From Fibrobacter sp. UWB5 (lineage in GTDB: Bacteria > Fibrobacterota > Fibrobacteria > Fibrobacterales > Fibrobacteraceae): a stretch of DNA of 64,000 nt. Positions 28,667 through 47,021 of this stretch are shown piece by piece. The translations under genes and the position numbers were made by a program. The stretch's first letter is position 1. Each line of letters opens with the position of its first letter. The stretch lies in the NCBI RefSeq assembly GCF_002210295.1, contig NZ_MWQH01000004.1, forward strand, positions 124,001-188,000. The letters are read 5' to 3'. The notes under the pieces were generated by a model. The model had not been told where the DNA came from. It ran no database searches and worked only from the letters and a program-made list of their open reading frames with translations.

Positions 28667-29730
28667 TTCTTTTCCTTAATAACCTGAAGGTCCTTTACCA
28701 TGATAGGCACCGCCTGCATATCCTGTTCACGCTTTTGCTTACGTGCCTTCTGCAAGCGTTCAAAATCGCCAAGTTCCCAATGAGCGCCGTTTACGACTTC
28801 TTCGAAATCCAAAACGTACTGCACGTTTTCTGCGGACTTGAGCGTTGCGCTCTTGAGCATGGGTTCCTTATTGCCGCTAAAGTACATACCCGACGCTTTC
28901 TTGATATCGTTCACAATCTGCTCGATTTTCGTGTTCACCACACTCCTGAACACCTTCATCTGCATAATGGAATTGAGCACCGAGTTGCCCGGGAACACGA
29001 TAGCGGTTAATTTGTACTTAATTATCTTGCCCGGCATCGGGTCCATGTCCAGGTAGGCAATCGCCGTTCCATGGAGGGCCCACTTCAAAATTTTCGCATG
29101 GCCATACCCAAAGAACAAGTCTCTCATGCCAAGCTTCTGGCCGGCGCTGTCCTGCAAGGCCCAGTAGAATTCGCCCGAAAGGCTACGGCCGTTACTGCCG
29201 TTAAAGAATCTTCTATTCGGGTGCGTGTATTCAAGCACGTAGTTTTCGTCGAGATAGGCGTTAATCAACTGCGCCGTAAACGGCATGTTGTCAAACAAGT
29301 ACTTGATTACGTTTTCATCCAGCGGAAGCGTTCCTTCGTAGCTGTATTCCACACGGTACTGGCGTCCCAGTCTCGCATAAATTTCGGGAACCATCGGAGC
29401 CTTGGGGTCAGCCTTGTAGCCGCGATTTGCCAGCTCCTTGTAGGGCTTGCAGAATTCGTCGTCGTACTTGACCTTGGGCCAAGGCTTCATATCGTCTTCG
29501 AAACAGCCTTCGAACACCTGGTTCATGCATATCTTGAGCCCCGAGCATAGCGAGCGCAAATCATCATTGCCGCCCAGTTTCTTGCGCAAGTTGTCATGCA
29601 TATGCACCTTAACCATGGGGTCTACCGACACGCCATAATTCGATGCTGCATTGTCACCAGCAAAAGACGCCGAAATGCTCAAGAGCATTCCCGCAAGCAC
29701 ACCCCCTGCAATACGGCTTAGCCACGACAT
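28663..29730 (-). CDS. Exported protein of unknown function
   Basis: The 355-residue protein starts with a signal peptide (MSWLSRIAGGVLAGMLLSIS, cleavage near ASFAG, residues 21-25). The N-terminal part contains four cysteines (62, 68, 76, 94) that could form two disulfides in the periplasm. The middle has an aromatic-rich region (residues 105-235), and the C-terminus is a charged helix rich in Lys/Gln. No known domain is recognised. The start codon shares one base with the stop of the M16-like gene (TAATG), and the end overlaps trmH by 4 bases, so it is the middle gene of a coupled trio. Confidence 0.75.
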   Translation of the reverse strand: MSWLSRIAGGVLAGMLLSISASFAGDNAASNYGVSVDPMVKVHMHDNLRKKLGGNDDLRSLCSGLKICMNQVFEGCFEDDMKPWPKVKYDDEFCKPYKELANRGYKADPKAPMVPEIYARLGRQYRVEYSYEGTLPLDENVIKYLFDNMPFTAQLINAYLDENYVLEYTHPNRRFFNGSNGRSLSGEFYWALQDSAGQKLGMRDLFFGYGHAKILKWALHGTAIAYLDMDPMPGKIIKYKLTAIVFPGNSVLNSIMQMKVFRSVVNTKIEQIVNDIKKASGMYFSGNKEPMLKSATLKSAENVQYVLDFEEVVNGAHWELGDFERLQKARKQKREQDMQAVPIMVKDLQVIKEKK

Positions 29731-31280
29731 TATCTAAACTCCAGACTGTCCTGAGGAATAACGGTAAAGGGTTTAATGGATTCCAATTTTGAAACGGGAG
29801 CAACAATCGAGGTGGTCATTTTATCCATGTCAAAATACTTCTTGACCATCGCCTTCACCTGGTCGGCAGTCACCGCATTGATTTCTTTCACGTATTCCAG
29901 GTAGTGGTCGTAAGACTTGCCCAACAGTTCACCCTTGGCAAAAATCACGGCAATCGCTTCGGGGCTATCGAACAGGCTCGGCAGGCTTTCGATCAAGGAT
30001 TTCTTCGCCTGGGCAAGTTCCTCTTCAGTGGGGCCCTGTTCCGCAAATTCATTCACCACTTCGCGGATCAGCTTCAAGGCGAATTCGACCGATTCCACCT
30101 TGGTCTGCAAAGCAATAGTCACCATGGCCGTGTCGCGGTAGTCGTTACCCACCGAGCTATACACGCTGTAGGCAAGGCCTTCGTCACTACGCACGCGGTT
30201 CATCAGGCGGCTCGTAAAGCTGCCGCCACCCAGAATAAAGTTCGCCACCGCCGCCGGATAGTAATCCGCATGGGGCCTGCGCACAAAGGGCTGGTTCATC
30301 GAAATGTTGGCCTGCGTAATGTCCTTGTCGACCACGTAAATTCCCGGCTTTCTCACAAAGGTAAGCGGAGTCGGTTCCTGCACCACAGGCTTTGCGTTCT
30401 TCTTCACGTTCTTGGCAACCGCGGCATTCCAGCTTTCAAAGAATTCCTTGAGCATGGTCACCGCAGAATCCTTGTCGATATCGCCCGAAAGGGCGAACAT
30501 GATTCGGGAATCCGCATACACGCCCTGGGCAAAACGCTTCAGGTCGGCAATCGTCACCTTCTTGTAGTCGGCCGCATTGGCATCCCAAAGTCTCGGGTTC
30601 GGAGCGTAGTTCACCTTGGAACGGAGCGCCGAAAGCACCTTTGCCGGAGTGTCATAGCGGCGGTCATAGGCCGTCAAGTAATTCGCACGCAGAATTTCGA
30701 ACTGTTCCTTATCGAAGGCCGGCGCCGTCAGCACTTGCTTCGAAAGCGAAAGCATGTTCGCAAAATCCTTGGACAGGCAATCGATATCGAATGTCGAGGT
30801 AAACGTTCCGACCGACGACGTAATTCCTGCACTGATGAATTCCAGAGAATCGTCCAGAGCCTTGGCCGAAATGCCGCCACCGCCACCACGGCGAAGCATG
30901 CTGCCCACCATCGACGAGGCGGCCTCGTCTTTAAGTGCAAGCGGCACACGAGGCTGTTCAAAATAAACCGTGAAGTTCACCAGCGGCAAGCTCCTGTCGC
31001 TCACGATATAGCCCGAAATGCCCGGAGCGATTTCTACGCGGTAATCCTTCGGATACGGGGCCACATACTTGTACTCCGGAAACTGGATATCCTTGTAGCT
31101 TGCAGGAACAGCAGGTTCAGCCTTTTCTTCAACGGCGGGAGCCGCCACCGAATCAGCCTGCGCAACAGCCGGAGCCGGCTCCGTCTGCGGTTCCGGAGAA
31201 CCCGAACAAGCATTCAAGGCAAACACTGTCGCTACCGACGTCGCCGTCAAAAAGAGAACTTTCAAATCAAACTTCATCAT
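29730..31280 (-). CDS. M16-family lipoprotein lacking the zinc-binding motif
   Basis: The 516-residue protein has a lipoprotein signal ending in LNAC, an Ala/Pro/Glu-rich tether and two M16 halves. The first half lacks the HxxEH zinc motif: its place is taken by LKDEAASSMVGSML, and the LRRGGGGGISAKALDDSLEF block follows. The second half keeps the R/Y-type segment GGGSFTSRLMNRVRSDEGLAYSV (residue block near 345-370) seen in the non-catalytic partner subunits of two-subunit M16B peptidases. It may therefore act as a partner or binding protein on the periplasmic side. No catalytic M16 partner is adjacent. Two consecutive ATGs occur at the start; the first is used. Confidence 0.85.
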   Translation of the reverse strand: MMKFDLKVLFLTATSVATVFALNACSGSPEPQTEPAPAVAQADSVAAPAVEEKAEPAVPASYKDIQFPEYKYVAPYPKDYRVEIAPGISGYIVSDRSLPLVNFTVYFEQPRVPLALKDEAASSMVGSMLRRGGGGGISAKALDDSLEFISAGITSSVGTFTSTFDIDCLSKDFANMLSLSKQVLTAPAFDKEQFEILRANYLTAYDRRYDTPAKVLSALRSKVNYAPNPRLWDANAADYKKVTIADLKRFAQGVYADSRIMFALSGDIDKDSAVTMLKEFFESWNAAVAKNVKKNAKPVVQEPTPLTFVRKPGIYVVDKDITQANISMNQPFVRRPHADYYPAAVANFILGGGSFTSRLMNRVRSDEGLAYSVYSSVGNDYRDTAMVTIALQTKVESVEFALKLIREVVNEFAEQGPTEEELAQAKKSLIESLPSLFDSPEAIAVIFAKGELLGKSYDHYLEYVKEINAVTADQVKAMVKKYFDMDKMTTSIVAPVSKLESIKPFTVIPQDSLEFR

Positions 31281-31328: not shown

Positions 31329-32225
31329 ATGCCAGGAATCATCCGATTTGCGCCGAGCCCCACGGGCTTTTTACACGAAGGGCACCTTCTTTCCGCCCTT
31401 TACGTGTGCGCCGCCGCAAAAAAATGGGACCTCAAAATTCACCTGCGCATCGAAGACCACGACCAAGGCCGTGCCCGCAAAGAATATATTGACGGCATCC
31501 GCGAAGATCTCGCCTGGTTCGGTTTCAAGTACGACAGCGAAAGCATCCAGAGTTCGCACTTTGACTTTTTCCAGAAGGTTCTCGACAAGCTCACCGCCAA
31601 GGGCCTCGTATACCCTTGCACTTGCAGCCGTAAACAGTTGCAATCCGAAAACCCCGTAAGCGAAACCGGCGAAGTCATTTACCAAGGCAAGTGCCGCACG
31701 CAAGCGGCACCTTGTAGCGGCCCCCATAGCCTGCGCGTCGTTATTCCAGACAAAGTAATCAACTGGCACGACGAGCGTCTCGGCGATTTCGCCGAGAATC
31801 CGAAAAATCAGTGCGGCGACTTCCCTATCCGCGACCGCGATGGATTTTGGACCTACCAATTCGCCGTCTGCATTGACGACCTCGCCGAAGGCATCACCCA
31901 CATTGTCCGCGGCGAAGACATCCGCAATTCCACCGCCCGCCAAATTGCGCTTTCCCAGTTAATCGCCGACACCTGCCAAGGCGACCCGGACGTTCCCCTT
32001 CCCCCGTACACGCGACCGCTGTATTTGCACCACCCCCTCATTGTGGATTCCAGCGGGAAAAAGCTTTCCAAGCGCGAGCACGCCTACAGCCTCCGTCAGG
32101 ACAAGGACCGGGGTAAATCGCCCCAGGAACTCTTGGGCCAAATCCTCTACAAAGCGGGATTTTTGTCCGACAATACCCCGACAACGTTAGAACAGGCGAT
32201 CGCAACCATCGCAGGGCGCCTATAA
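31329..32225 (+). CDS. gluQ: Glutamyl-Q tRNA(Asp) synthetase
   Basis: The 298-residue protein is a truncated paralogue of glutamyl-tRNA synthetase with the catalytic domain only. It has RFAPSPTGFLHEGHL (HIGH-like HEGH, about 16-19), the LRIEDHDQGRA segment that binds glutamate, a CxC zinc site in YPCTCSRKQL, and KLSKREHAYSL as the KMSKS-like loop. The anticodon-binding domain is absent, as in YadB/GluQ. It attaches glutamate to queuosine at position 34 of tRNA(Asp). A TATAAT at 31,303-31,308 lies 20 bases before the ATG. It is divergent from the M16-like gene. Confidence 0.93.
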   Translation: MPGIIRFAPSPTGFLHEGHLLSALYVCAAAKKWDLKIHLRIEDHDQGRARKEYIDGIREDLAWFGFKYDSESIQSSHFDFFQKVLDKLTAKGLVYPCTCSRKQLQSENPVSETGEVIYQGKCRTQAAPCSGPHSLRVVIPDKVINWHDERLGDFAENPKNQCGDFPIRDRDGFWTYQFAVCIDDLAEGITHIVRGEDIRNSTARQIALSQLIADTCQGDPDVPLPPYTRPLYLHHPLIVDSSGKKLSKREHAYSLRQDKDRGKSPQELLGQILYKAGFLSDNTPTTLEQAIATIAGRL

Positions 32226-32282: not shown

Positions 32283-32288
32283 TATATT
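32283..32288 (+). promoter_or_regulatory. TATATT box 6 bases before the DUF4011/helicase-like start
   Basis: TATATT is followed by six bases and ATG 32,295, in the 69-base gap after gluQ. No Shine-Dalgarno sequence is visible, so the box supports this start and a very short leader. Confidence 0.45.
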
Positions 32289-32294
32289 CAAGGT

Positions 32295-35200
32295 ATGTCT
32301 TCACCTTCTGCTATTGTCGCCAAAATTCGGCAAGAAGCCGCCCTCTTTGATTCCAAAGACCGTTTACTCAGTTTTTCGACCAAGAACGACTTTCAGTCTC
32401 CCCTGATTACCGAAGCCGGAGACCTCTTCTACGAAAAATGGGTACAGGCTCAAGGGCCGCTTCCCCTGGAATCCTTTTTCCAGGTTTCCCAGAATTTTAC
32501 GGCGCAGCAAAAGATTACCGCCCTCGATTCCATTTCGGCGGTACTCCGTCAAAAGCTCGACGATCTCGGTGAGACCGACCTTTACCTGCTCCTCGGCTTT
32601 TTAAAGTGGGACGGCAACGCCCTGGCCCCGAGCCTTTTGGTTCCGCTCGACTACGACGCCACCAAGGGCACGGTTTCCATTTCCAAGCGTACCCCCATCG
32701 AAAACATCATTTTGCGCGAACGCCTCAAAGACACCGTCGCGCTCCCCACCGCCGAAGATGCCATCATCAACGGCAAGTTCAGCCTGCTCCTGTATTTTTC
32801 ACAATTTGAAAAGGCCATAGCCGGCGAACGCAACTGGCGATTCACCCGCCACGGGCTCTGCCTCGGATTTTTCAATACCAACCTGCTCGCCCTCAAGAAG
32901 CGGTTCAGCAAGGGTTTCTCCGACAAATCCATCGACGGGAACCCCATCCTGGCATCCCTCCTTTGCAAGGAAGGCTTCCAGACCCAGGAATCCCTTTTCG
33001 AAGAGAAGGATTTCGACAACGTCTTTTCTCCCGCCGACCACCACTTCCTTTACACCACCGATTCGCATACGAATAAAGTGACGGTGGATGCCGAAAACGA
33101 GAACGCCTGTGCCTACGCAATCCAGACGCTCCCCGGCACCGAAAAAATGAAGGTGGCCGCAAACATTGTCGCCGACGAAATCGCCCAAGGCAAAAAAGTT
33201 CTGGTCGTCCACAAGCGTGCCGTTACCAAGCGCGCCTTCCAGAACGCCTGGCGCCCCGCCTTCCGCAGTTTCCCGGACTGCGACCGCAATGCCCTTGAAC
33301 AGAAAGTCCGCGCCATGCGCAACGGATTCCTGGAATACTACAACGCGGTCAACAAGCCCATTCCGCCCACCAACGTGGTGCTTTCGGACTTGCTGCGCGA
33401 ATTCAAGGACGTAAGGCCGCCCAAGAAGAAGTTCCCCGACCGCATTTTCCGCGGCATCGGCCAGCTGGATTTTGACGGCTACCAGGAGCTCAAGAAAGAT
33501 ATCCAGGTTCTGTCGGAACTCTATTTCGACAAGAAGGGTGTCGAAGCCCGCAAGGCTTTCCGTGGCGTAAAGATTTCAAGCCTTTCTACCGAACAGCAGC
33601 AAGTCCTTTCCGAAGAACTCCGCTGCGCTGCAGAAAGCGCACAGAAGCTCACACCGATTATCCAGAAAATGGAATCGACCGGGCTCTTCCCCACAGGCAT
33701 ATTCCTGTCGAGCATGATCGACATTCTCGAACTGTTGCGCGATAACTTTGACGAAAACACGCCGACGTTCGAAGACTGGCAGCTGCGCAGCCACAACTGG
33801 CACGCCTACAAGGACACCCTCATGTACCTGCCCGAAGCGGGCGACAAGTGGGTACGCTACCGCAGGCAGACCTCCGACATTTACACCGACAACGCCGTCG
33901 ACGAAAACATCCAGAATGCACGCGACGACTTTGCCGAATGCCAGCATATTTCGCTCAAGGGCCTTTCGGAACGTTACCGCTCTTCGCGCAAGCGCCTGAT
34001 GCAGGTCATCCGCAAGCCCAAGACCGTCGACTCCGACGCCAAGCTTCTGGACTTGATCGACACGCTCCTCGAGCTGCAAGCCAACAAGAAGACTTACAAG
34101 GAAAGTGCTGTCCTCGGCAATCACTTGCTCGGACGCGACTGGCACTTCGAAGGTTCCAACTGGGTCGAACTGAATCAGAAAATTCAATTCCTTTACGCCT
34201 TCCGCGAAAAGCATCAAGACGATCCTAGACTCGATCTGCTGCTGCAGCTGCTGGAACAGTGGCACAACTTCAAGGACCTGCAGCCGGAACTTTCAAACCT
34301 CTGGAATTCCGTCATCGAACTCCAGACATCGATCAAGCAAATCAACAAAGACTTGGATCTCGAGACCCCGCTCGAAAGCCTGAGCATCGAAAAATGGCTC
34401 GGCCAAATCCAGGTATGGAATGACAACTGGAGCCACCTCGACGTCCACCTGCAGCTGACGGCGCACCTCAAGAAGATGGAAGGCTACTGCAACACGGCCC
34501 TCATCGAATACCTCAAGGATCCCGAAAACGCAGACGCCGACTTCAGCAGCGCACTCGCCCATTACTGGACCGGCGCCCAGATTCAGGCGGCCACCAAGGA
34601 ATGCCCCGTGCTCTTCTCGGAATCCCCGAAGACCAAGGCGCAAAAGAGCAAGGAATACCGCACGCTCCTGGACCAATTCTGCAACGCAAACTTCAAGGAA
34701 CTGCACAACGCCGTCGATGCCGACCCAAGCGTTCTCGTCGTCGATGAACTTTCCGACGCGCTCAACATTCCCGAAAAGCAGACCTTCGACATTTCGATTA
34801 TTCTCGACGCCGACGCCATCTCAATGGTCGAAGCATTGCCGGTCCTGCTTGCAGCCCCCAAGACCATTCTCATTGGCGACCCGCACAACCCGAGTCACGA
34901 CTACCTGCCGATCGACGCCTTCCACGAAGAAGCCATCACACGAAGCGCCTTCTTCCAAGAAAGCATTCTGACGGCGGCACTGCGCCAAGGTGCTCCGACC
35001 AGGGAACTCTGGTTCACCTCGCAGTACAGCGACCCGGCAATCGTCACGTTCGCCAACGAACGCATTTACAATCACGGGATCAAGCAGTTACCGCCCCCGA
35101 ACAATGAAATCTTCAAGGGCATTTCGATCAAGGAAGTCTCCGACAAGATCGAAACGATTGCGCTTACGGCAATCCGCCACGCAGAGCGCCATCCCGAAAA

Positions 35201-36392
35201 GACTCTCGGCATCATCGCTTTCCACCAGTCTACCTGTCAAGAAATCGAAGACGCTATTCGGGCAAGACTTTCTGCAGGCACACCTGCAGCCGCCTTCTTT
35301 GCAAGGCCGAATGCTGATATCCGCTATTACGTCAAGACGCCCGAACGCGCCGTAGACCAGTTCCGCGACACCATTCTCTTGTGCATGGAAGCCGAAGGCG
35401 CAGGCGGTCTCGACCACAAGATTGCAGTCTGCTCGACACTTGCCAAGCGCGAACTCCGCGCCTTCATTACCGAAGCCGACCTTGCTAAAATCGCGTCGCA
35501 AAAGAATTCGCTCTTCCGCGAATGGCTCAACTTCTTGCAGTCCAGACAATATGACCCCGTGGTCGACATCGAACCTGCAGATTCTCCGCTCCGCAGCGAA
35601 GTCATCGACGCCTTGAAGAACGAAAACATCCTGGTGCAGGAATACTCCTCGAAGGGAGGCATTCCCGTGGGCCCGGTCGTTATCGACGCAAACAATCCCA
35701 CGCATTTCCTGGCGCTTGTCGAAGACGACTGCACCACGGAACGTTTCCGCGATTCTATCGAAGACCGCGACTACGTGCGTCCGCAGATTCTGAAGCAGCT
35801 CGGCTGGAAGGTCATGAACCTTTGGTTGCCGTTCTGGTACATGTCCAACAAGGACGAAGTCGGGCACCTTCTCGCAACGCTCGCCATCGAGCAGAGTGTG
35901 GCTCCCCCGCCCACCGTCGACGCCGAAGAGGACGACGGTTCCGAAGTGTTTGACGCCGCCTCGAAGCCCATGACAGAACCTTACGTGGTCCAGCATCCGA
36001 AAATCGAAGGCACGGCCCACGACAAGCCCATTGCGGAACTCCCGACTGCAGCACTCATTACGCAGCTCAAGTTCTACGTAGACTCGGAAGCCCCGATTCA
36101 CGAAGAAATCCTGAAGCAGCGCGTTCTGGAACTGCACCATGTCGACAGAGCGGGCCCTGTGCTCCAGAAGGCACTTACCGAAGCGATCCTCCAAGGCTTG
36201 CAGAAGAAGCGCTTTATCAAGACCGGACCGTTCTACTACTCGCTCAAGGCCAAGGAACCGGTGGCACGCAACCGCGCAAACCGTCCGGACTTTGAACGCA
36301 AGCTCGCTTACGTGGCGCCCGAAGAACGCTCCCTCATGCCGCAGAGTATGGATGAACACGCCATCAAGCAGGCAATGGGACTGTTAGAATAA
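32295..36392 (+). CDS. DUF4011/SF1-helicase/nuclease-like protein with degenerate motifs
   Basis: This 1365-residue protein follows the order DUF4011 (about 10-145, ALFDSKDRLLSFSTK, LLLGFLKWDGNALAPSLLVP), split SF1 helicase domain, MTES_1575/Vsr-like nuclease domain (about 1100-1175) and DUF3320 (about 1240-1315, IHEEILKQRVLEL). Catalytic signatures are eroded. Walker A reads LPGTEKMKV (279-287) instead of GxxGTGK[S/T]. Walker B reads ILDADAISM near 836, where DEAS is usual, and GDP follows near 862. The arginine-bearing YRS-type motif reads FTSQYSD. The nuclease segment lacks the usual acidic residue in IDLAV (here PVGPVVID). The architecture is known from defence-associated helicase-Vsr proteins. 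This member may be a structural or regulatory derivative. Confidence 0.75.
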   Translation: MSSPSAIVAKIRQEAALFDSKDRLLSFSTKNDFQSPLITEAGDLFYEKWVQAQGPLPLESFFQVSQNFTAQQKITALDSISAVLRQKLDDLGETDLYLLLGFLKWDGNALAPSLLVPLDYDATKGTVSISKRTPIENIILRERLKDTVALPTAEDAIINGKFSLLLYFSQFEKAIAGERNWRFTRHGLCLGFFNTNLLALKKRFSKGFSDKSIDGNPILASLLCKEGFQTQESLFEEKDFDNVFSPADHHFLYTTDSHTNKVTVDAENENACAYAIQTLPGTEKMKVAANIVADEIAQGKKVLVVHKRAVTKRAFQNAWRPAFRSFPDCDRNALEQKVRAMRNGFLEYYNAVNKPIPPTNVVLSDLLREFKDVRPPKKKFPDRIFRGIGQLDFDGYQELKKDIQVLSELYFDKKGVEARKAFRGVKISSLSTEQQQVLSEELRCAAESAQKLTPIIQKMESTGLFPTGIFLSSMIDILELLRDNFDENTPTFEDWQLRSHNWHAYKDTLMYLPEAGDKWVRYRRQTSDIYTDNAVDENIQNARDDFAECQHISLKGLSERYRSSRKRLMQVIRKPKTVDSDAKLLDLIDTLLELQANKKTYKESAVLGNHLLGRDWHFEGSNWVELNQKIQFLYAFREKHQDDPRLDLLLQLLEQWHNFKDLQPELSNLWNSVIELQTSIKQINKDLDLETPLESLSIEKWLGQIQVWNDNWSHLDVHLQLTAHLKKMEGYCNTALIEYLKDPENADADFSSALAHYWTGAQIQAATKECPVLFSESPKTKAQKSKEYRTLLDQFCNANFKELHNAVDADPSVLVVDELSDALNIPEKQTFDISIILDADAISMVEALPVLLAAPKTILIGDPHNPSHDYLPIDAFHEEAITRSAFFQESILTAALRQGAPTRELWFTSQYSDPAIVTFANERIYNHGIKQLPPPNNEIFKGISIKEVSDKIETIALTAIRHAERHPEKTLGIIAFHQSTCQEIEDAIRARLSAGTPAAAFFARPNADIRYYVKTPERAVDQFRDTILLCMEAEGAGGLDHKIAVCSTLAKRELRAFITEADLAKIASQKNSLFREWLNFLQSRQYDPVVDIEPADSPLRSEVIDALKNENILVQEYSSKGGIPVGPVVIDANNPTHFLALVEDDCTTERFRDSIEDRDYVRPQILKQLGWKVMNLWLPFWYMSNKDEVGHLLATLAIEQSVAPPPTVDAEEDDGSEVFDAASKPMTEPYVVQHPKIEGTAHDKPIAELPTAALITQLKFYVDSEAPIHEEILKQRVLELHHVDRAGPVLQKALTEAILQGLQKKRFIKTGPFYYSLKAKEPVARNRANRPDFERKLAYVAPEERSLMPQSMDEHAIKQAMGLLE

Positions 36393-36946: not shown

Positions 36947-39900
36947 CTAGTTGCTAGAAGCCTTCAGGTAATCCGTCACAGGCTTCGGCGAGCGCTTGAT
37001 GCCCCAGACAGATGTGCTTTCCTGCTTAGCTTCCTTACCGGCAGAACCGAGCTTCACGTAAGAATTGAGCTTGACGATGTAAGCACCGGTACCCACCATG
37101 CGGCCCTTGTCGGAACGCATGTTCCAGCCGATGAAGAAGTTACGGTCGTTGCCAGCATCGGTGCAAAGTCCACCGTTGAAGTACTTTTCAGAGTTCTTGC
37201 TGTCGTCGCAGTAGATCTTCTGGCTCTGGCCAGCCACGAAGCCACCGAGGTTCGTGTAGTACTGGACTTCGTAGTAGAAGAAGATGTCACCAGGTTCAAT
37301 TTTCTTGCGTTCTTCTTCGTCGAGACCGTTGAACAGAGCGTACATGTCAGCCTTGACAAAGTGACCAGGCTTGCCACCTTCAGCAGCCATGACTTCGTTC
37401 TTGGTCATAGTCGTACGGTAGGCGTTCACAGTCACAGCCGGCACCTTGTCGCCAGACGGGCCGTTAGCCGTAGAAGCGAACTTGTTTTCAATCACGGCGA
37501 TTTCAGCGTCACCCGTGACCGGCACCCACATAGACGGGAGTCTCTTCGTTTCGTTGTAACTCGTCGGAGAGTTCCAGTAGTAAGCCGCATCGGAAACAGC
37601 ACGGAGCGTGTCACCACCCAAGTTCGTCAGGTCAGTCGTATCGGACCAGAAGATGTTGGACAGGTCGCCACCCAAGCGGACATAGTCACCCACGTGCGGA
37701 GAAATGTCGCCGCGCAAGTACATGTACTTGATACGGCCTTCGCCCTTGGCAGAGCCCAAAGCAGGTTCGTTCTGAGCAGTCACCTTGGCAGAGGTATTGC
37801 CCAAAGCAGACACGAAGCGGTTGGATTCCGGCAGGTCGATTGCAGAATTCAAGTAGAAGTCCAGAGCGTCCTTCCTGTTAGAGGTCGTAACGAGCTTGAC
37901 CGGTTCAGACATAATGATCACGAGGCTGTCGTAGTCTGTCAGGTCGTCACCATTCTTAATGGTTCGCACTTCAGCACGCAGCGGCACCGGAGCAATACGG
38001 TCGGTCAAAGCACCGGCAAAGCCCTGCTTCATGTTCTTACCCTTATCTTCGAAGACAGCGTAAGAATGAACCTTACCCACACCAGCCGTCTTGACGGCTT
38101 CGGAGAGCGTGAGGCCACCAATCGTAATCAAGTTGGTGCAGTAGCCGCCCTTACCGTTGTATTCAACCGGGTTAGAGCAATCGATATTGTCCGTAGACAC
38201 TTCCATCAACTGGTTACAGGTAATGGCGGTATCCTTCGTAATGGTAGAATAGCCTTCCTTATACGGGTTATGGTTTTCAGCCGAAGCAGAATCCCACATC
38301 ACGCAAAGCTTGGTCGGCAAGGAGTCCTTGTGGATCGGACGGTCATAGTAAATCGCAATGGAGTCGCCGATACCATCGAGGTATTCCTGAGACATGCTGA
38401 AGTACGGGTCCGGAATCTTGAGTTCCAGAGAGGGAGTCTTTCCCTTCACGTCGAACACGTCAGCCAAGACCGGATACGGAACCGGAGGATCGCGGAAGTA
38501 GATCGGGTTGTAAACGGCCTGCACAAAGTCGTTGTATTCGGCAACGATCGTTGCGGGGCTGTTGATAGAAGGATCCGTATCCCAACGATACTTGGTCAGC
38601 GCACGCACAGAAATCGTGGCATAGCCACCTTCAAAGGTGTAAACACTGTCGATGAACTGAATCTTCGGAGAGGTCTGAGACCCCATGTGGATCGCGAGGC
38701 CATCGCATTCAGTCAAGCAAGCGCTATAGCTACCGTCTTCATTGGGCTTCAACACGGCGAGGTACAAGTCATACACAGAGCCGACCCAAAGTTCATCGTA
38801 AGCGCCGTCCGAATTCGGAGTCTGGCCCTTGACGGACTTGGCGTTAGCACCTTCTTCCGGAATCTGTTCAATGAACGTGATCTGCGGCAGATAGAAGCTA
38901 ATCGACACGGTATTTTCACGGCCAGTCACACCCACCTTGAAGGTCTGGATCGAATTGGTCATGTTGTCCATGTCAATCGTCGCATAGAGAGTATCGACAC
39001 CGGATTCACCGATAACACGCTTCTGACCAGAGGTGAGTCTTACGCGAGCCGTAGAGCCATCGGCCAAGGTAGAATCGTAGTAGAGTTCCAGCACCTTGTC
39101 GTAGGAGAGCGTGTATTCAACACCGGCAGCATCCTGCGGGAAGATTTCGACACCCTTCGTATTGCCTTCGCCAGGAGCCACAGAAGACACATAGACCGGA
39201 ATATATTCGCCAGCCATAGCGGTGGTCTGCAGGTTGTACTTACCGCCCGGAATATCGACACCGTTCGTATCCTTGGCGACACCGTTTGCGTAAATCACGT
39301 CGACTTCGCCACTCATACGGAAGGTTGCCACCTTCTTGGACTTACCATCGATGTTTACGAACAAAGTGTAACGGCCGCCACCCAAGCACATCTTATCCTT
39401 GTCCACCTTCGGGGCAGTGATAGAGGTCAGGTCGACACCGCACTTGTACACTCCCGGAGTAGAGACATTTTCAAAGCCCGGCACCGGTTCAGAAGAAGGA
39501 AGGTTTCCGTTCACAAGGGTATAGGAAATGCTCAGGTTTCCTTCAGAAATCATCTTGTCGCCGCAATAGGTTTCTTCCTTGTCGTCACCCGTCATGGCAG
39601 CAGCGCAAGAGCCGTCACCCGACTTGGTGTAGCAGATATTGTAAGACGTTTCGGCCGGATTCTGCTTGTTCTTGGTACCCTTCACGTCGATAGCGGTCTT
39701 CTGCATAATGTACATGTTCGTCTTGATACGCACGTTACTCATGGTGGTACGGCGGTCGCAGAAGAAGATATCGAGGTCATACTGGTTACCGGCAACAAGT
39801 TCGCCGCTCTTGCCCTTGAACTTATCCAGGTTCACATACCCCGGAGCGGCCAAGTGAGTACCACCCAGGTCCACAGCCAACTGGTTATCAATGAACACCC

Positions 39901-41635
39901 AAATGTCATCGTCGCCGCGGAAATTGAACTTCAGACCCGGCTTATGAGTGAACTTAGCGTGAGATTCAAAGCAGAACTGCTGGTTACGGCCACCTTTACC
40001 ATTCGCAGTTTCCTTAGACGTCCAACGCGGAGAGCCTTGTTGATTTGCAGGAGGGGCACTTTCTGTTCCATCACTAAAGAATGCCCAGCCCTTCGGGGCG
40101 TCGTTCGGGCAGCTCCATCCGAAAACACAATCGTTCGGGGCCGCCATACTAAAGTGTTCCCTAACAACAGTTTCAGTTCCTTCACCATCAGCAAAGAGGC
40201 CATCACACTTGATACCGCCATCCCAACCCGGACCACTGCAAAGAACATCAATTGCAGGAATACCTTCGTCAGGATCATCGGCACGGAGAACCGGACCATA
40301 GAACACCGGACCTTCAGCCGTACGCTTGGTACGTGCCTTGGCAACCGGAGTCTGAGTCGGGTCCGCAGCGAGAATAGAAGCATCATCCGTAGCTTCGACC
40401 GGGTAGAAACCACCCTGAACCGAAAGTCCCGGACTGGTGTAGTAGTCAGAGTCGAATTCCCACTTACCATCAGAAGAACGATGGAACGGCATATCGAAGC
40501 AGCTCTTTTCGTTCACGCCCTGAGTGTAGTTGAACAACTGGTTAAAGTACTTGTCATCCATAAAGCACTTCTTACCTGCCGTAGTCAATTTCGGCTTTCT
40601 CATAGACTGCGGAACCGTTTCATCAAGAGTTGATTCCACAATACCCGGAGTTACACCAATACAAGCGTTAATAGCCGCAATAGCGGTCGTCTTGTCAACG
40701 CCCTGAGCAGCAGTACCACTCATAGCCTGGCAGCCTTCGCCACCCTGAGACCAACAAGAGAATGCCGGATGCAAATCCGCATCGGTATCGTAAATAATAG
40801 CAGCCATGGTGTAAGAGCAGTTGCCTTCAATGCCATCCACTTCGGCGGCGCTATAGTAGTAACCGTCGTCATTGGTCTTCTGTTCTTCGTCCGGGACAAA
40901 GAACAAGGAGTCCACCATGTTAAAAATCATGTTCAAGGCAATCGGCTGGGCCGTGGCAGCGGTTTCCCAGTTGCCGTTCACGCCAATCATGTCTTCGCGA
41001 TCAGTATCATCATCACGGAAGAGCACCACGTTGTCCGTGATTTCTTCGTTGAAGAACACGTAGGAATACCATCCGCACATGCCATCCACGGCCTTCATCG
41101 GCTTACCGGTCTGGCCGCCATCCGTACTGAGCATCGGCACGGCAGACATCCACTCTTCGTAGTCAGGCGGAATCATTATAAAGAAATATTTTGCGTCAGG
41201 CGGGTTTTCGCTAATCACGGGCTTTTCCGGATCCGTCGGATTCGGGAAGATGTAAAGGTCGCCCGTCTTGCTACAAGGAATACCGGCATTCTGAGTACAG
41301 CTAGCCTTGTCGTATTCAATGCCCGTAATGCCTGGCTTCTGGCAGTAGTCGTTGTTTGCCGAGGCAATAAAGAATGTGGTGTCTTGTCCCTGAGCAATAA
41401 GGGAGGACGAAACCGTCCACCAGCCATCGGCTTGTTTTTTAAAGGGAACAAACTTGCCACCACCGGCGGCATAAGCTTCTGTCCAAGATGCAGGGGCTTG
41501 CAAATAAACGGTACCTTCGGCACAAACCTGACCGTTCAACGCAAATGCGCTCTGCACTCCAGCGAAAAGCAGACAAACACCCAACGCCCACTTGACCAGG
41601 AGGTTCATTTTGTTCATTTTCATTTTAGTTTCCAT
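36947..41635 (-). CDS. Giant fibro-slime domain surface protein (paralogue 1)
   Basis: The start is taken at ATG 41,635 (METKMKMNKMNLLVK), which gives a normal signal peptide and an AAGGA site 9-10 bases upstream; an in-frame start 61 codons earlier gives no sensible N-terminus. The 1562-residue protein has an N-terminal module ending in MCGWYSYVFF, then a fibro-slime domain of PA14/GLEYA-like lectin fold (about 470-650) with FNFRGDDDIWVFIDN and VDLGGTHLAAPGYV, the likely metal and ligand sites, then several beta-sandwich-like repeats. Fibro-slime proteins are Fibrobacter surface proteins linked to adhesion to plant fibre. The last 60 residues (GTGAYIVKLNSYVKLGSAG) resemble a FlgD-type Ig-like end. 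It is 60-70% alike its neighbour by eye in the fibro-slime region. Confidence 0.9.
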   Translation of the reverse strand: METKMKMNKMNLLVKWALGVCLLFAGVQSAFALNGQVCAEGTVYLQAPASWTEAYAAGGGKFVPFKKQADGWWTVSSSLIAQGQDTTFFIASANNDYCQKPGITGIEYDKASCTQNAGIPCSKTGDLYIFPNPTDPEKPVISENPPDAKYFFIMIPPDYEEWMSAVPMLSTDGGQTGKPMKAVDGMCGWYSYVFFNEEITDNVVLFRDDDTDREDMIGVNGNWETAATAQPIALNMIFNMVDSLFFVPDEEQKTNDDGYYYSAAEVDGIEGNCSYTMAAIIYDTDADLHPAFSCWSQGGEGCQAMSGTAAQGVDKTTAIAAINACIGVTPGIVESTLDETVPQSMRKPKLTTAGKKCFMDDKYFNQLFNYTQGVNEKSCFDMPFHRSSDGKWEFDSDYYTSPGLSVQGGFYPVEATDDASILAADPTQTPVAKARTKRTAEGPVFYGPVLRADDPDEGIPAIDVLCSGPGWDGGIKCDGLFADGEGTETVVREHFSMAAPNDCVFGWSCPNDAPKGWAFFSDGTESAPPANQQGSPRWTSKETANGKGGRNQQFCFESHAKFTHKPGLKFNFRGDDDIWVFIDNQLAVDLGGTHLAAPGYVNLDKFKGKSGELVAGNQYDLDIFFCDRRTTMSNVRIKTNMYIMQKTAIDVKGTKNKQNPAETSYNICYTKSGDGSCAAAMTGDDKEETYCGDKMISEGNLSISYTLVNGNLPSSEPVPGFENVSTPGVYKCGVDLTSITAPKVDKDKMCLGGGRYTLFVNIDGKSKKVATFRMSGEVDVIYANGVAKDTNGVDIPGGKYNLQTTAMAGEYIPVYVSSVAPGEGNTKGVEIFPQDAAGVEYTLSYDKVLELYYDSTLADGSTARVRLTSGQKRVIGESGVDTLYATIDMDNMTNSIQTFKVGVTGRENTVSISFYLPQITFIEQIPEEGANAKSVKGQTPNSDGAYDELWVGSVYDLYLAVLKPNEDGSYSACLTECDGLAIHMGSQTSPKIQFIDSVYTFEGGYATISVRALTKYRWDTDPSINSPATIVAEYNDFVQAVYNPIYFRDPPVPYPVLADVFDVKGKTPSLELKIPDPYFSMSQEYLDGIGDSIAIYYDRPIHKDSLPTKLCVMWDSASAENHNPYKEGYSTITKDTAITCNQLMEVSTDNIDCSNPVEYNGKGGYCTNLITIGGLTLSEAVKTAGVGKVHSYAVFEDKGKNMKQGFAGALTDRIAPVPLRAEVRTIKNGDDLTDYDSLVIIMSEPVKLVTTSNRKDALDFYLNSAIDLPESNRFVSALGNTSAKVTAQNEPALGSAKGEGRIKYMYLRGDISPHVGDYVRLGGDLSNIFWSDTTDLTNLGGDTLRAVSDAAYYWNSPTSYNETKRLPSMWVPVTGDAEIAVIENKFASTANGPSGDKVPAVTVNAYRTTMTKNEVMAAEGGKPGHFVKADMYALFNGLDEEERKKIEPGDIFFYYEVQYYTNLGGFVAGQSQKIYCDDSKNSEKYFNGGLCTDAGNDRNFFIGWNMRSDKGRMVGTGAYIVKLNSYVKLGSAGKEAKQESTSVWGIKRSPKPVTDYLKASSN

Positions 41636-41659
41636 CGATGGTTTTCCTTCCAACATAGA

Positions 41660-41693
41660 ATGGCAAAAAGGCAATCCTTTTTTGAAATGCCAT
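41660..41693 (-). promoter_or_regulatory. Conserved 5'-leader hairpin before fibro-slime paralogue 1
   Basis: CAAAAAGG (41,664-41,671) pairs with CCTTTTTTG (41,676-41,684), and outer arms ATGGC and GCCAT extend the stem. It begins 28 bases upstream of the ATG. A similar hairpin sits at the matching place before the other giant paralogue. It could be an attenuator or an operator. Confidence 0.45.
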
Positions 41694-41880
41694 AGACCGC
41701 CCTCAAATTTACTCTTTTTTGCGGAAAAAGCCAATTTATTTTTTCTGATTTTTTGTGAATTTTTAGTTCCTTTTGTGTACAAAAACTTATAAAAACGAAA
41801 CAGCGTGAGTTTTGTCACAAGAAAAACAGCTAGTGTAAAATTATGTTTTCAACACACGGGTTTCAAGCCTGATCCATATA
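41694..41880 (-). promoter_or_regulatory. Upstream region of fibro-slime paralogue 1
   Basis: This AT-rich stretch between the leader hairpin and the terminator of the next fibro-slime gene has long T/A runs but no open frame that looks coding. It presumably holds the promoter; I cannot assign a convincing -35/-10 pair. Confidence 0.3.
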
Positions 41881-41931: not shown

Positions 41932-44900
41932 TTATTCGGCAACAGCCTTCATGTATCCCGTATCGGGTTTCGGCGAACGTCTGACGCCCCACACGGATGT
42001 ACTTTCTTGCTTAGCACGCTTACCGGCAGAACCGAGTCTCACGTAAGACTTGAGTTTCACGATGTAAGCACCCGTACCCACCTGGCGACCATTGTCAGAA
42101 CGCATGTTCCAACCAATGTAGAAGTTACGGTCGTTACCGGCATCGGTACAAAGTCCGCCACCGAAGTACTGGATACGTTCACCCGTTTCCGGATTGATTT
42201 CGGTATTCTTATTGTCATCGCAGTAAATCTTCGCGGTCTTGCTCGCTACAAAGTTACCCAGGTTGGTATAGTACTGGACTTCAAAGTAGAAGAACACATC
42301 CTGCGGCAAGATCGAGGCACGTTCTTCCGGAGTAAGGCCATTGTACAAGGCATACATATCTGCCTTGACCAAGTGACCGGGCCTACCACCTTCTTCAGCC
42401 CAAATTTCAGCCTTGGTCTTGGTCGTGCGGTAAACGTTCACAGACACGGCCGGAGTCTTTTCGCTGCTCGGGACGTTTGCTGTAGAAGCATACTTGATTT
42501 CGTCCACGGCGATTTCGGCATCGCCAACCACCGGAACCCACATCGAGGGCACGCGCTTGGTTTCGTTGTATGCCGTCGGAGAATTCCAATGGTATCCAGC
42601 GTCATCGGCAGAGCGCATCGAAGCGGCATCGGCGGCAAGCGCGTTGATGTCAGTCGTATCAGACCAGAAGACATTCGACATATCACCAGCCAGGCGCACA
42701 TAGTCACCCACATGCGGAGAAACGCTGCCACGCAGGTACATATACTTGATACGGCCTTCACCCGTCTTGGCATCAGTGCCCAAAGCCGGATCACTCTGGG
42801 CAGTCACCACAGAAGAGCCGTCGCCCAAGGCAGATACATAGCGGTTCGATTCGGCCAGTTCAATGGCAGAATTCAAGTAGAAGTCCAAAGCCTGCTTCTT
42901 GTTGGAAGACGTTACCAACTTAACCGGTTCAGACATCACCACCACAAGGCTATCGTAGTCGGTCAAGTCGTCACCGTTCTTAAGGGTACGTACTTCGGCA
43001 CGCAGCGGCACAGGCGCCATACGGTCCGTAAGTTTACCGCTAAAGCCCTGCTTCACCGCCTTACCCTTGTCTTCGAATGCCGCGAAAGAATGGACCATGC
43101 CAATACCGGACGTCTTCACCTTTTCGGACAGGGTCAAGCCGCCCACCATAATAATATTGGTGCAGTAACCGCTATCAGACGGTGCAGAACAGTCAATGTT
43201 GCTTGCATCAAGCGACACGAGTGCGTTACAGGTAATAGCGGAATCCTTCGGCATCGTCGAAATCTTTTCTTGGTACGGGTTATGGAATTCAGCCGTAGTG
43301 GAATCCCACATCACGCAAATCTTGGACGGCAAGGAGTCCTTGTGAATACGGCGGTCGTAGTAAATGGCCACGGAGTCGCCGATACCATCCAGGTATTCCT
43401 GCTGCATGCTAAAGTACGGAGACGGAATAGCATGTTCCAAGGTCGGCAATGAACCGCGGGCATCGAACACGTCTGCCAAGACCGGGAACGGTACCGGCGG
43501 ATCGCGGAAGTACATCGGGCTATACACGGCCTTCACGAAGTCATTGTATTCAGCCACGATCGATGCCGGGCTGTGGATTGACGGATCCGTATCCCAGCGG
43601 TACTTGGTCACCGAGCGAATCGATATCTTGGTATAACCATTTACAAAGTATGCTTCTGTCTGTCCTTCATCCCACATAAAGTCAATCTTCGGGGAGGTCT
43701 CAGAGCCCTTATGGATGGCGACACCATTGCACTTTTCAGTACAAATGCTGTAGGTTCCATCCAAATCCGGGACCAGGATTGCCAAGTACATATCGTAAAT
43801 GGTACCGACCCAGTTTTCATCGTAAGAACCGTCAGCCTTCGGAGTCTGGCCCTTGACAGGGACTGCGACTTCGTCTTCGGTTTCCGGAATACTCTCGATG
43901 AACGTAATCTGCGGCAGGTAGAAGTAGAGTGTCAGCGGAGTCGGTCTGCCAGAAACGCTGATTTCGAACGGCGTAATCGGTTGCTGCAGGTTTTCCATAT
44001 CAACCGTCGCATAAAGCGTATCGATACCGGCAGGGCCAATCGTCTGCTTTTCGCCGGAATGGAGCTTCTGGTATGCTTCTGCACCCGTAGTCGGATCGAC
44101 AACCTTTCTGTACACGGTCATCATATTGTTATAGGCAAGCGTATATTCCATGCCGGCAGCGTCATCCGGGAAGATTTCGAGGTCATCGGAATCGGTACCA
44201 GGAGCGACGTTCGACACATAGATCGGAATCATTTCGCCACCCATGGCAATGGTTTCCACATTGTACTTACCCTTCTGAACGACGTCGCCGGTTTCTTCAT
44301 CCACAGAAATGGCGTTACCATTCTTGTAGAGCACATCCACTTCACCGGTGGTCTTGAAACTCATGACCTTCTGGGACTTGCCATCGATGGTCACGAACAA
44401 GGTGTAATAGCCGCCCGGCAAGCAGGTGCTGGACTTGTCAACCTTCGGTTCTACAAGGTTCGTCAAGTCGATACCGCACTTGTACACGCCCTGGACATTG
44501 ACATTTTCAAAGCCGGGGACAACGTTTTCGGTAATCTTCTTACCGTTCACGAGCGTGTAAGAGGGAATTCTACCCGATTCAAGAATTTCGATACCGCAAT
44601 AGGTGGCACCGTCTTCGGTACCCGTCATGGCAGCGGCGCAAGAACCGTCGCTTGTCACCGTAAAGCAAAGGTGGTCGTAAATCGTTTCGGCGGGATTCGT
44701 CGGATTCTTTTTACCCTTCACTTCGATAGCGGTCTTCTGCATGATGTACATGTTCGTCTTGATACGCACGTTACTCATGGTCGTACGACGGTCGCAGAAG
44801 AAGATATCCAAGTCATACGTGTTGCCAACCACCAAATTCTGGCCATTATAGCCCTTGAAGCTGTCTAGGTCCACATAACCCGGAGCAGCCAAATGCGTAC

Positions 44901-46707
44901 CGCCCAAGTCCACAGCCAAGGTATTGTCGATAAACACCCAAATGTCATCGTCACCGCGGAAGTTGAACTTCAAGCCCGGCTTAAATGTAAACTTGGCATG
45001 CGATTCAAAGCAGAACTGCTGGTTACGGCCTCCCTTGCCGTTCGCCGTTTCTACAGATTTCCAACGAGGTTCATTGGCATCACTTCTTGCAGCCGGAGTT
45101 TCTGTTCCACTCACAAAGAAGGCCCAGTCTTCAGGAGCATCTGCCTTGCAGCTCCAACCAAAAATGCATTGGCCAAACTTAGGCGAAAGTTCCGCATCCG
45201 TTCCGGTACCATCCGCAAAGAGGGTTTCGCAATCCCTGCCCTTGTTCCAACCCGGGCCATTGCAAAGAATATCGATTTCCGGCATATCTTCCGCCGCATT
45301 AATTTTACGAAGGGGCGAAGAATAGAACACCGGGCCTTCGGCCGTACGCTTGGTACGGGCAGCAGCCACGGGCACCTGATTCGGGTCAGCCAAAAGAATG
45401 GACGCATCCGTCGTATTTTCTACCGGGTAGAAACCTCCCGGCACGGTAAGTCCCGGGCTGGTATAATAGTCAGAGTCGAATTCCCACTTGCCATCCTTTG
45501 CTCGCTTGAACGGCATGTCAAAGCAGCTCTTTTCGTTCACTCCCGGAGTATAGTTGAACAGCATGCCAAAGTAAGAGTCATCGATAAAGCAGTTCTTACC
45601 CTTCGTACTCAATTTGGGCTTTCTCTGGGACTGCGGAACCGACGGATCAAGTTTGCTTTCGACAAGCCCCGAAGTCACGCCAATACAGGCGTTTACAAGT
45701 TGCTGAGCCGTCGTCGCAGCAATGCCCAAGGCGCCATTCTGGCAACCTTCGCCACCACCATCCTTGTAGCAAGAGAAGGCCGGGTGCAAGCTGGCATCGG
45801 AGTCGTAAATAATAGCAGCCATGGTATAGGAGCAAGTTCCTTCGATACCGCCGACTTCAGCCTTACTATAGAAATAGCCATCCGGGCTATCGCCTTTCTG
45901 TTCTTCGTCCGGAACAAAGAACAAGGAGTCAACCATGTTCAAAAGGAATCCCAAAGGTATCGGCTGGGCCTGATCCTCTTCTTCCCAGTTGCCGTTCACA
46001 CCAATCATATCTGCACGTTCAAGGTCATCATCGCGATAAAGCACCACATTGTCAGAAATATCCTGACCCACAAACACATAGGAATACCAACCGCACATAT
46101 CGTTCACAGCCGTCATGGGAGAGCCGGTCAAGCCCCCATCAAAACTGATCATCGGAACGGCAGACATCCAGTCTTCCATTTCAGGCGGAATCATCACGAA
46201 GAAATACTTTGCACCAGGAGGATACTTTCCGGTAAAGGTTTTGCCCGGGCTATTGGGATTTTCGGTCACATATACATGTTCGCCTTCACCGGGGCAACGG
46301 AGAGAGGCGTTATTGATAAACCAACTGTTATCGTTTGTATTCAGCGGCGTAACAGCAAACGCAGTACTGGTAACACCTTGAAAAGTTGCATTCACCGAAG
46401 CCTGATTTCCTATAGCGAAAAAGGGGCTTTGGTTATCCGTGATACCCAGTCCTTCCAGGTCATATTCATAGAAACCATCGGCATTCAATGTCATTTTTCG
46501 AGTAAACTGGACATTTTTACCGCCAATATAAGCTGTAGTCCAGTCATCCGGAGCCTTAAAGTACACCGTACCTTTACAGGTGATCGGGTTCTGGCTCTGT
46601 TGCCCTTGAGCCCAAACCCCTTGCACCCCCGCAAAGAGCAGGCAACAGCCCAGGGCATATTTCCACAACGACATTTTCCACAAAGAAAATTGTGTATCTC
46701 TCTTCAT
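41932..46707 (-). CDS. Giant fibro-slime domain surface protein (paralogue 2)
   Basis: The 1591-residue protein starts with a signal peptide (residues 1-33, ending VWAQG). Its N-terminal module (MIPPEMEDWMSAVPM, MCGWYSYVFV) and the fibro-slime domain (about 480-670, FNFRGDDDIWVFIDN, VDLGGTHLAAPGYV, FCDRRTTMSNVRI) match paralogue 1 almost block for block, and the long C-terminal part (DDLTDYDSLVVVMSEPVKLV, YIGWNMRSDNGRQVG) does too. The pair is therefore a tandem duplication of full-length genes. The PA14-like domain with its DDD and DLGGTH residues suggests calcium-dependent carbohydrate binding. It faces the FHA-GGDEF gene across a 314-base promoter region. Confidence 0.9.
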   Translation of the reverse strand: MKRDTQFSLWKMSLWKYALGCCLLFAGVQGVWAQGQQSQNPITCKGTVYFKAPDDWTTAYIGGKNVQFTRKMTLNADGFYEYDLEGLGITDNQSPFFAIGNQASVNATFQGVTSTAFAVTPLNTNDNSWFINNASLRCPGEGEHVYVTENPNSPGKTFTGKYPPGAKYFFVMIPPEMEDWMSAVPMISFDGGLTGSPMTAVNDMCGWYSYVFVGQDISDNVVLYRDDDLERADMIGVNGNWEEEDQAQPIPLGFLLNMVDSLFFVPDEEQKGDSPDGYFYSKAEVGGIEGTCSYTMAAIIYDSDASLHPAFSCYKDGGGEGCQNGALGIAATTAQQLVNACIGVTSGLVESKLDPSVPQSQRKPKLSTKGKNCFIDDSYFGMLFNYTPGVNEKSCFDMPFKRAKDGKWEFDSDYYTSPGLTVPGGFYPVENTTDASILLADPNQVPVAAARTKRTAEGPVFYSSPLRKINAAEDMPEIDILCNGPGWNKGRDCETLFADGTGTDAELSPKFGQCIFGWSCKADAPEDWAFFVSGTETPAARSDANEPRWKSVETANGKGGRNQQFCFESHAKFTFKPGLKFNFRGDDDIWVFIDNTLAVDLGGTHLAAPGYVDLDSFKGYNGQNLVVGNTYDLDIFFCDRRTTMSNVRIKTNMYIMQKTAIEVKGKKNPTNPAETIYDHLCFTVTSDGSCAAAMTGTEDGATYCGIEILESGRIPSYTLVNGKKITENVVPGFENVNVQGVYKCGIDLTNLVEPKVDKSSTCLPGGYYTLFVTIDGKSQKVMSFKTTGEVDVLYKNGNAISVDEETGDVVQKGKYNVETIAMGGEMIPIYVSNVAPGTDSDDLEIFPDDAAGMEYTLAYNNMMTVYRKVVDPTTGAEAYQKLHSGEKQTIGPAGIDTLYATVDMENLQQPITPFEISVSGRPTPLTLYFYLPQITFIESIPETEDEVAVPVKGQTPKADGSYDENWVGTIYDMYLAILVPDLDGTYSICTEKCNGVAIHKGSETSPKIDFMWDEGQTEAYFVNGYTKISIRSVTKYRWDTDPSIHSPASIVAEYNDFVKAVYSPMYFRDPPVPFPVLADVFDARGSLPTLEHAIPSPYFSMQQEYLDGIGDSVAIYYDRRIHKDSLPSKICVMWDSTTAEFHNPYQEKISTMPKDSAITCNALVSLDASNIDCSAPSDSGYCTNIIMVGGLTLSEKVKTSGIGMVHSFAAFEDKGKAVKQGFSGKLTDRMAPVPLRAEVRTLKNGDDLTDYDSLVVVMSEPVKLVTSSNKKQALDFYLNSAIELAESNRYVSALGDGSSVVTAQSDPALGTDAKTGEGRIKYMYLRGSVSPHVGDYVRLAGDMSNVFWSDTTDINALAADAASMRSADDAGYHWNSPTAYNETKRVPSMWVPVVGDAEIAVDEIKYASTANVPSSEKTPAVSVNVYRTTKTKAEIWAEEGGRPGHLVKADMYALYNGLTPEERASILPQDVFFYFEVQYYTNLGNFVASKTAKIYCDDNKNTEINPETGERIQYFGGGLCTDAGNDRNFYIGWNMRSDNGRQVGTGAYIVKLKSYVRLGSAGKRAKQESTSVWGVRRSPKPDTGYMKAVAE

Positions 46708-47021
46708 ATGACTTCCTTAAAGCTGGGTACACCAAAAAGACCGGCCTTTTTGGGACACCACAACCTACGTAAAAATATCCTTTTCTTTACAAAAAAGCAC
46801 ATTTTTTACTTTTTTTTTCATTTCACGGCCCGTAATGTTGCAGACAAGCGAAAAACCTCCTTAAAATTGCCGAATTTCGCCATTTCGGGTACTTTTGTTA
46901 ACAGACGTTTACCAAAAAGGCCCTTCAAAAACAGGCAAAAAACCGATATGCAAATCACGCAAAAATGCATGGACAAGGCGGGCTTGTTTTTTATTACATT
47001 TTAGGGCAACACGGAGTGCTT
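46708..47021. promoter_or_regulatory. Divergent promoter region (fibro-slime 2 / FHA-GGDEF)
   Basis: This 314-base AT-rich stretch has no convincing gene. It contains the leader hairpin at 46,732-46,753, several A5-6/T6-9 tracts and a CCAAAAAGG copy near 46,912. On the plus side GGAG lies about 6 bases before ATG 47,022. No clear -35/-10 pair could be fixed for either gene. Confidence 0.45.
46732..46753 (-). promoter_or_regulatory. Conserved 5'-leader hairpin before fibro-slime paralogue 2
   Basis: CCAAAAAG and CTTTTTGG form the outer stem around CC/GG, 24 bases upstream of the ATG at 46,707. It matches the hairpin before paralogue 1 in arm sequence and position, while the surrounding bases differ. 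Confidence 0.5.

Follow-up and report, generated by a model that had tools for sequence, protein, structure and literature searches.

A predicted catalytically dead DUF4011 helicase-nuclease protein carried beside gluQ in Fibrobacter and six related genera

The helicase-nuclease family that is parent to the protein dealt with here is already known. ProA (NCBIfam NF058533) and Hhe (NF042953), both anti-phage, share with it DUF4011, an SF1 helicase, a Vsr/MTES_1575 nuclease and a C-terminal DUF3320 region, and PDC-S37 of the PADLOC library (PDLC05009), a candidate anti-phage protein, shares its domain order and length class. In MTES_1575-type proteins, as in the present one, the REase fold is followed by a DUF3320/wHTH C-terminus, DUF3320 being described as overlapping a winged helix (wHTH assignment, PMC3710099). 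A likeness of another sort is to the large DUF4011 gene flanking cDHS1 that Pseudomonas aeruginosa is reported to have as a core gene in all isolates (PMC10250203), where the comparison is by core status only, the neighbourhood being unrelated.

The gene at issue lies in a stretch of 64,000 nucleotides from Fibrobacter sp. UWB5 (the window; coordinates are counted from its first letter), and its product, here termed the pseudo-helicase, is predicted to have lost catalysis. The host lineage is a branch of fibre-degrading gut bacteria.

Architecture and the gluQ locus

The reading frame opens with ATG and is uninterrupted, and the gene is single-copy in the genome from which the window comes. 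The features of the locus and the domains of the protein are as follows.

31329 to 32225, plus strand: gluQ, glutamyl-Q tRNA(Asp) synthetase (Pfam tRNA-synt_1c), the conserved upstream neighbour
32283 to 32288, plus strand: TATATT box, promoter-like, just upstream of the ATG
32295 to 36392, plus strand: open reading frame of 1365 amino acids, predicted catalytically dead DUF4011–SF1 helicase–REase (MTES_1575)–DUF3320 protein
32295 to 33059, plus strand: DUF4011-like N-terminal domain (PF13195), residues 1-255
33795 to 34274, plus strand: middle part of the helical insert, residues 501-660, the best-conserved part of the insert in the pseudo-helicase family
35565 to 35909, plus strand: REase domain of MTES_1575 fold, residues 1091-1205 (PF18741 match and column counts)
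35982 to 36389, plus strand: DUF3320/C-terminal region, residues 1230-1365, the most conserved region of the pseudo-helicase family

An earlier note on this DNA had proposed a DUF4011, SF1 helicase, Vsr-type nuclease and DUF3320 architecture, and full-length homology bears this out. When 36 orthologues were compared by hhalign with five motif-intact homologues (intact as judged by sequence alone), the probability was 100% and E was 1.8e-71 with 1299 columns aligned, so that the architecture is real, its family form being DUF4011, RecA1 with a large helical insert, RecA2, MTES_1575 REase and DUF3320. The best match in the PADLOC library is PDC-S37, at 370 bits over several stretches for the window protein and 539 for an orthologue from genus g23 (L092); by homology, on the alignment and this score, the protein belongs to the PDC-S37/DUF4011 helicase-nuclease family. 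Single-domain Pfam scores are as follows: for PF18741 MTES_1575 35.2 bits in the window protein, and 37.6, 57.2 and 25.7 bits in orthologues from genera g22, g23 and g24 (gathering cut-off 38.2); for PF13195 DUF4011 18.8 bits, with 41.7 in g23 and 26.7 in g22 (cut-off 22.2); and for PF11784 DUF3320 22.7 bits with the whole protein and 26.6, above the cut-off of 25, with the C-terminal fragment alone. Sequence and profile searches of the PDB gave no credible match, and AlphaFold models of residues 1–1200 and 802–1365, made from a six-sequence alignment (the window protein and five orthologues), reached a pLDDT of only 36 and 35. The PHROGs search yielded a single family, of unknown function, no relative was found in a scan of viral contigs, and tblastn against plasmids and phages returned nothing closer than homologues of 22–25% identity, whose coverage of the protein reached 56% at most.

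The placing of the gene beside gluQ and outside a defence island, and its having a box of its own, were also claimed earlier and hold up. In 51 of 52 loci gluQ is directly upstream on the same strand, the spacing usually being 48–118 bp; the exception (G160) retains the pseudo-helicase and has no gluQ-grade match, only matches inside longer frames of GluRS/GlnRS size. In 41 loci a downstream SPOR gene is in opposed orientation. Ten neighbours were compared with PADLOC and gave no match and, as set out below, the distribution is not patchy. Separated from the ATG by a few bases, the TATATT box does not vary among 12 orthologues that were aligned, suggesting an mRNA with no leader or a very short one. 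Within the window, TATATT stands 4-8 nt before an ATG nine times (1.2 expected by chance), which suggests that mRNAs of this kind are common here. In the whole genome, TATATTTGN4ATG is found 15 times as against twice for a reversed-pattern control. Sites of the box include 9185+, 13076+, 21632-, 32283+, 36893-, 54033-, 59645+ and 63398-, several of them at real gene starts. An Rfam scan of the window gave no RNA family.

Some other genes of the window deserve mention in their own right. On the minus strand at 29730-31280 is an M16-peptidase-like protein whose Pfam match is only to the inactive C-domain and whose N half has no HxxEH zinc motif; non-catalytic paralogues of this sort are usual among M16B partner subunits. 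Close together on the same strand (36947-41818, 41932-46707 and 49316-51496) are genes for three large secreted-type proteins that are related to one another, one with a PA14 match; they look like paralogues because their matches in other genomes fall at the same places. An FHA and GGDEF (diguanylate cyclase) protein at 46965-47900 on the plus strand keeps its synteny in many of the compared loci.

Distribution and the catalytic residues

The gene is present in 78 of 80 Fibrobacter genomes, including all 40 of high quality, with one copy in each. It is missing from two genomes, of 65% and 71% completeness, and these likewise have no gluQ-grade match, just lower-scoring matches in longer frames of GluRS/GlnRS size. 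Beyond Fibrobacter (g1), it occurs in g18, g19, g20, g22, g23 and g24, whereas sister genera g15, g16, g17 and g21 lack it, as does the rest of the phylum sample. Inheritance has been vertical and the locus fixed: in a PtsI tree exactly the seven gene-bearing genera form one supported clade with the four sister genera outside, and a quick tree of the gene has the same groupings, separate from the motif-intact homologues. A homologous fragment in g17 has intact motifs and is closer to the motif-intact set than to the pseudo-helicase family. In one g24 genome (G165, 94% complete) gluQ is present and no pseudo-helicase was found either adjoining it or elsewhere, so the gene is not strictly required throughout the clade; with the locus that retains the pseudo-helicase and has no gluQ-grade match, this means that either gene can be lost without the other.

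For comparison of motifs, 52 orthologues were aligned with ten motif-intact homologues (three from Fibrobacter, six from plasmids and one from a metagenome scaffold labelled as phage), the C-terminal columns being read in 51 of the orthologues. The altered helicase motifs of the window protein are these.

33126 to 33155, plus strand: degenerate Walker A, residues 278-287, TLPGTEKMKV for GPPGTGKSQT
34803 to 34817, plus strand: degenerate Walker B, residues 837-841, LDADA for DEASQ
35013 to 35027, plus strand: lost arginine motif, residues 907-911, FTSQY for WHYRS
35439 to 35441, plus strand: Leu1049 in place of the motif VI Arg

Across the orthologues Walker A has gone from GPPGTGKS to xLPGTxKx. 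The Gly before the Lys (283) is in none of the 52, Ser285 is Ser in two and mostly M, A, D or E, and Lys284 persists in 39, being W, G, A, R or L elsewhere. The Walker B acids are gone, with Leu for Asp at 837 in 51 of 52 and Asp for Glu at 838 in all, DEASQ having become LD[AS][DE]x with a single exception. Gln864 of motif III is found in 6/52, the HYR arginine of motif IV (R910) in about one, and at motif VI there is Leu or His throughout (Arg in 0/51). In motif V the Gln of QG (Q1020) is likewise missing from all 51, whereas R1024-D1025 is retained in every one; this RD and the Walker A Lys are all that is kept of the key residues of motifs I to VI. The earlier note had left room for an intact Walker A elsewhere in the protein; no family-aligned one was found among the 52 members, and the chance GK[ST] matches that eight of them have occur at positions that do not align, the window protein having no such match.

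Of the D, (E)xD, Y[HK] set of MTES_1575 nucleases, the first Asp (position 1126), present in 10/10 motif-intact homologues, is in none of 51 orthologues (G, Q, S, C or L, with Gly in the window protein), and the YH/YK pair at 1149-1150 is lost, as is the Gly after E-x-D. E-x-D itself is there in all (E1143 and D1145, both 51/51), together with D1157 (49/51) and D1131 (50/51). The last of these, the Asp of PVGPVVID, was considered as a retained catalytic residue and rejected: in the alignment with motif-intact homologues it sits five residues downstream of the catalytic place, and because 5/10 of those homologues have it beside an intact first Asp, it looks like a turn residue rather than a relocated one. 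The claim that all sites had been lost is thus a little too strong, holding for the helicase motifs and for the first Asp and His of the nuclease but not for E-x-D, D1157 and, in 39 of 52, the Walker A Lys; with E-x-D and one downstream Asp kept, the nuclease domain is partly, not wholly, stripped. Catalysis by the pseudo-helicase is very unlikely on these alignments, and the persistence of E-x-D in all 51 and of the Lys in 39 makes residual ligand or metal binding possible.

Selection and the role that may remain

The gene is under purifying selection. Nei–Gojobori dN/dS for whole-gene pairs of near relatives is 0.033 to 0.132, the frame is open and undivided in almost all 78 Fibrobacter copies, and 79 residues are invariant across the seven genera, down to about 30% identity. 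Disrupted copies are confined to single assemblies, i.e. an internal TAG stop in a MAG (G027) and a split into two frames in another (G116). Relaxed selection or frameshifts across the orthologues, to which the earlier note had looked as counter-evidence, did not emerge as a pattern, and its proposal of selection on a non-catalytic role draws support from the low dN/dS, the single copy and the gluQ synteny across genera. Since every aligned member is already inactive, inactivation predates the ancestor of the clade; taken together, the clade distribution, gene tree, gluQ synteny and low dN/dS place it there, with the dead protein under selection since.

What is conserved has shifted. For the RecA parts conservation is lower than in the motif-intact homologues (0.76, 0.65 and 0.63 falling to 0.56, 0.49 and 0.50), and it is higher for insert residues 501–660 (0.39 in the motif-intact set, which is the more divergent of the two, partly accounting for its low value here, and 0.62 in the pseudo-helicase family, with 18/160 residues invariant) and for the C-terminal region 1230-1365 (0.43 and 0.66, with 21/136 invariant). 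Among columns that the motif-intact set conserves, those of the motifs were not lost significantly more often than the rest (p=0.19), the core having drifted as a whole.

The reading that we somewhat favour, at a little better than an even chance, is that a PDC-S37/ProA-like gene settled by gluQ, lost catalysis and was kept as a core, non-catalytic scaffold. As phylogeny, synteny, motif loss and purifying selection indicate, an anti-phage helicase-nuclease gene came to lie beside gluQ in the ancestor of Fibrobacter and the six other genera of its Fibrobacteraceae clade, both ATPase and nuclease catalysis were lost before the clade diversified, and the inactivated protein was retained as a core gene. 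Its RecA and REase folds would persist as structural platforms, and the helical insert (501-660) and the C-terminal REase-fold/DUF3320 (winged-helix) module would serve as constitutive binders of nucleic acid or of a protein partner. This scaffold step is suggested by where the conserved residues now lie, and a non-catalytic binding scaffold acting through insert and C-terminal module is the most likely form for the protein's function. More tentative, with chances that fall short of even, is the fuller proposal that before the clade radiated a defence helicase-nuclease became a constitutive housekeeping protein of the core genome, working through insert and winged-helix tail with no catalysis; given the strict gluQ adjacency, an example would be a chromosome-linked or a tRNA/translation-linked role.

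The main rival to the scaffold reading is a non-catalytic role still within immunity, as a dead sensor, decoy or dominant-negative regulator that e.g. binds phage DNA or partners active DUF4011 nucleases. The nearest known relatives are indeed defence proteins, by the PADLOC and NCBIfam matches, and non-catalytic sensors occur generally in immunity. Against this, the gene is universal, single-copy and vertically inherited by the housekeeping gene gluQ outside a defence island, and no more than about four of 80 Fibrobacter genomes (G005, G032, G132 and G150) have a detectable homologue that is motif-intact (or related and full-length), so the pseudo-helicase is not their general or obligate partner; an immune role is therefore rated unlikely. 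Outright decay, as of a defence-gene remnant whose loss is pending, might be read from the missing motifs, the apparent loss in one species and the stop and split in two copies, and was rejected on dN/dS and intact frames, with the 79 invariant residues also opposing it, so that it is the least credible of the readings considered.

Two further alternatives would retain one activity. That the ATPase is dead and the nuclease still cuts, through a site rearranged around E1143, D1145, D1157 and D1131, could appeal to the near-complete retention of those four residues and to the migration of catalytic residues in some PD-(D/E)XK enzymes; replacement of the first Asp in all 51, loss of the YH/YK pair and of the Gly after E-x-D, and the occurrence of D1131 alongside an intact Asp make it quite improbable. 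ATP hydrolysis through non-canonical motifs, for which the Lys in 39 of 52 and an invariant or nearly invariant LD[AS][DE] at the Walker B place might be adduced, is fainter still, the Ser/Thr, Walker B Asp, both Arg positions and motif III Gln being lost and the Lys being replaced by W, G, A, R or L in the remainder.

Comparison with known systems

In the literature searched, no clade-wide inactivated core version of a DUF4011 protein was found, nor a paper on the pseudo-helicase gene. Giant DUF4011 helicase-nucleases have been studied as anti-phage effectors, and the present case indicates that a protein of this type can be inactivated and become a settled part of a core genome. A motif-dead version shared by a whole clade sets catalysis apart from binding or scaffolding, and offers over 90 natural sequences in which to locate the non-catalytic function. 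It would also caution against annotating DUF4011 genes as defence systems on HMM score alone.

The differences from the systems mentioned at the outset are of several kinds. Motif-intact Fibrobacter members of PDC-S37 score 1215-1408 bits and are sporadic, whereas the pseudo-helicase is inactive by its motifs, core and syntenic. ProA and Hhe, at 1800-1900 aa as against about 1365, have the catalytic set that is absent here, and the window protein falls far below their cut-offs (235.3 bits against 1500 for ProA and 76.9 against 2000 for Hhe). MTES_1575-type proteins carry HEPN and other domains that the pseudo-helicase lacks (PMC3710099), as it does the first catalytic Asp, while having in common with them the order in which REase fold and C-terminus follow one another.
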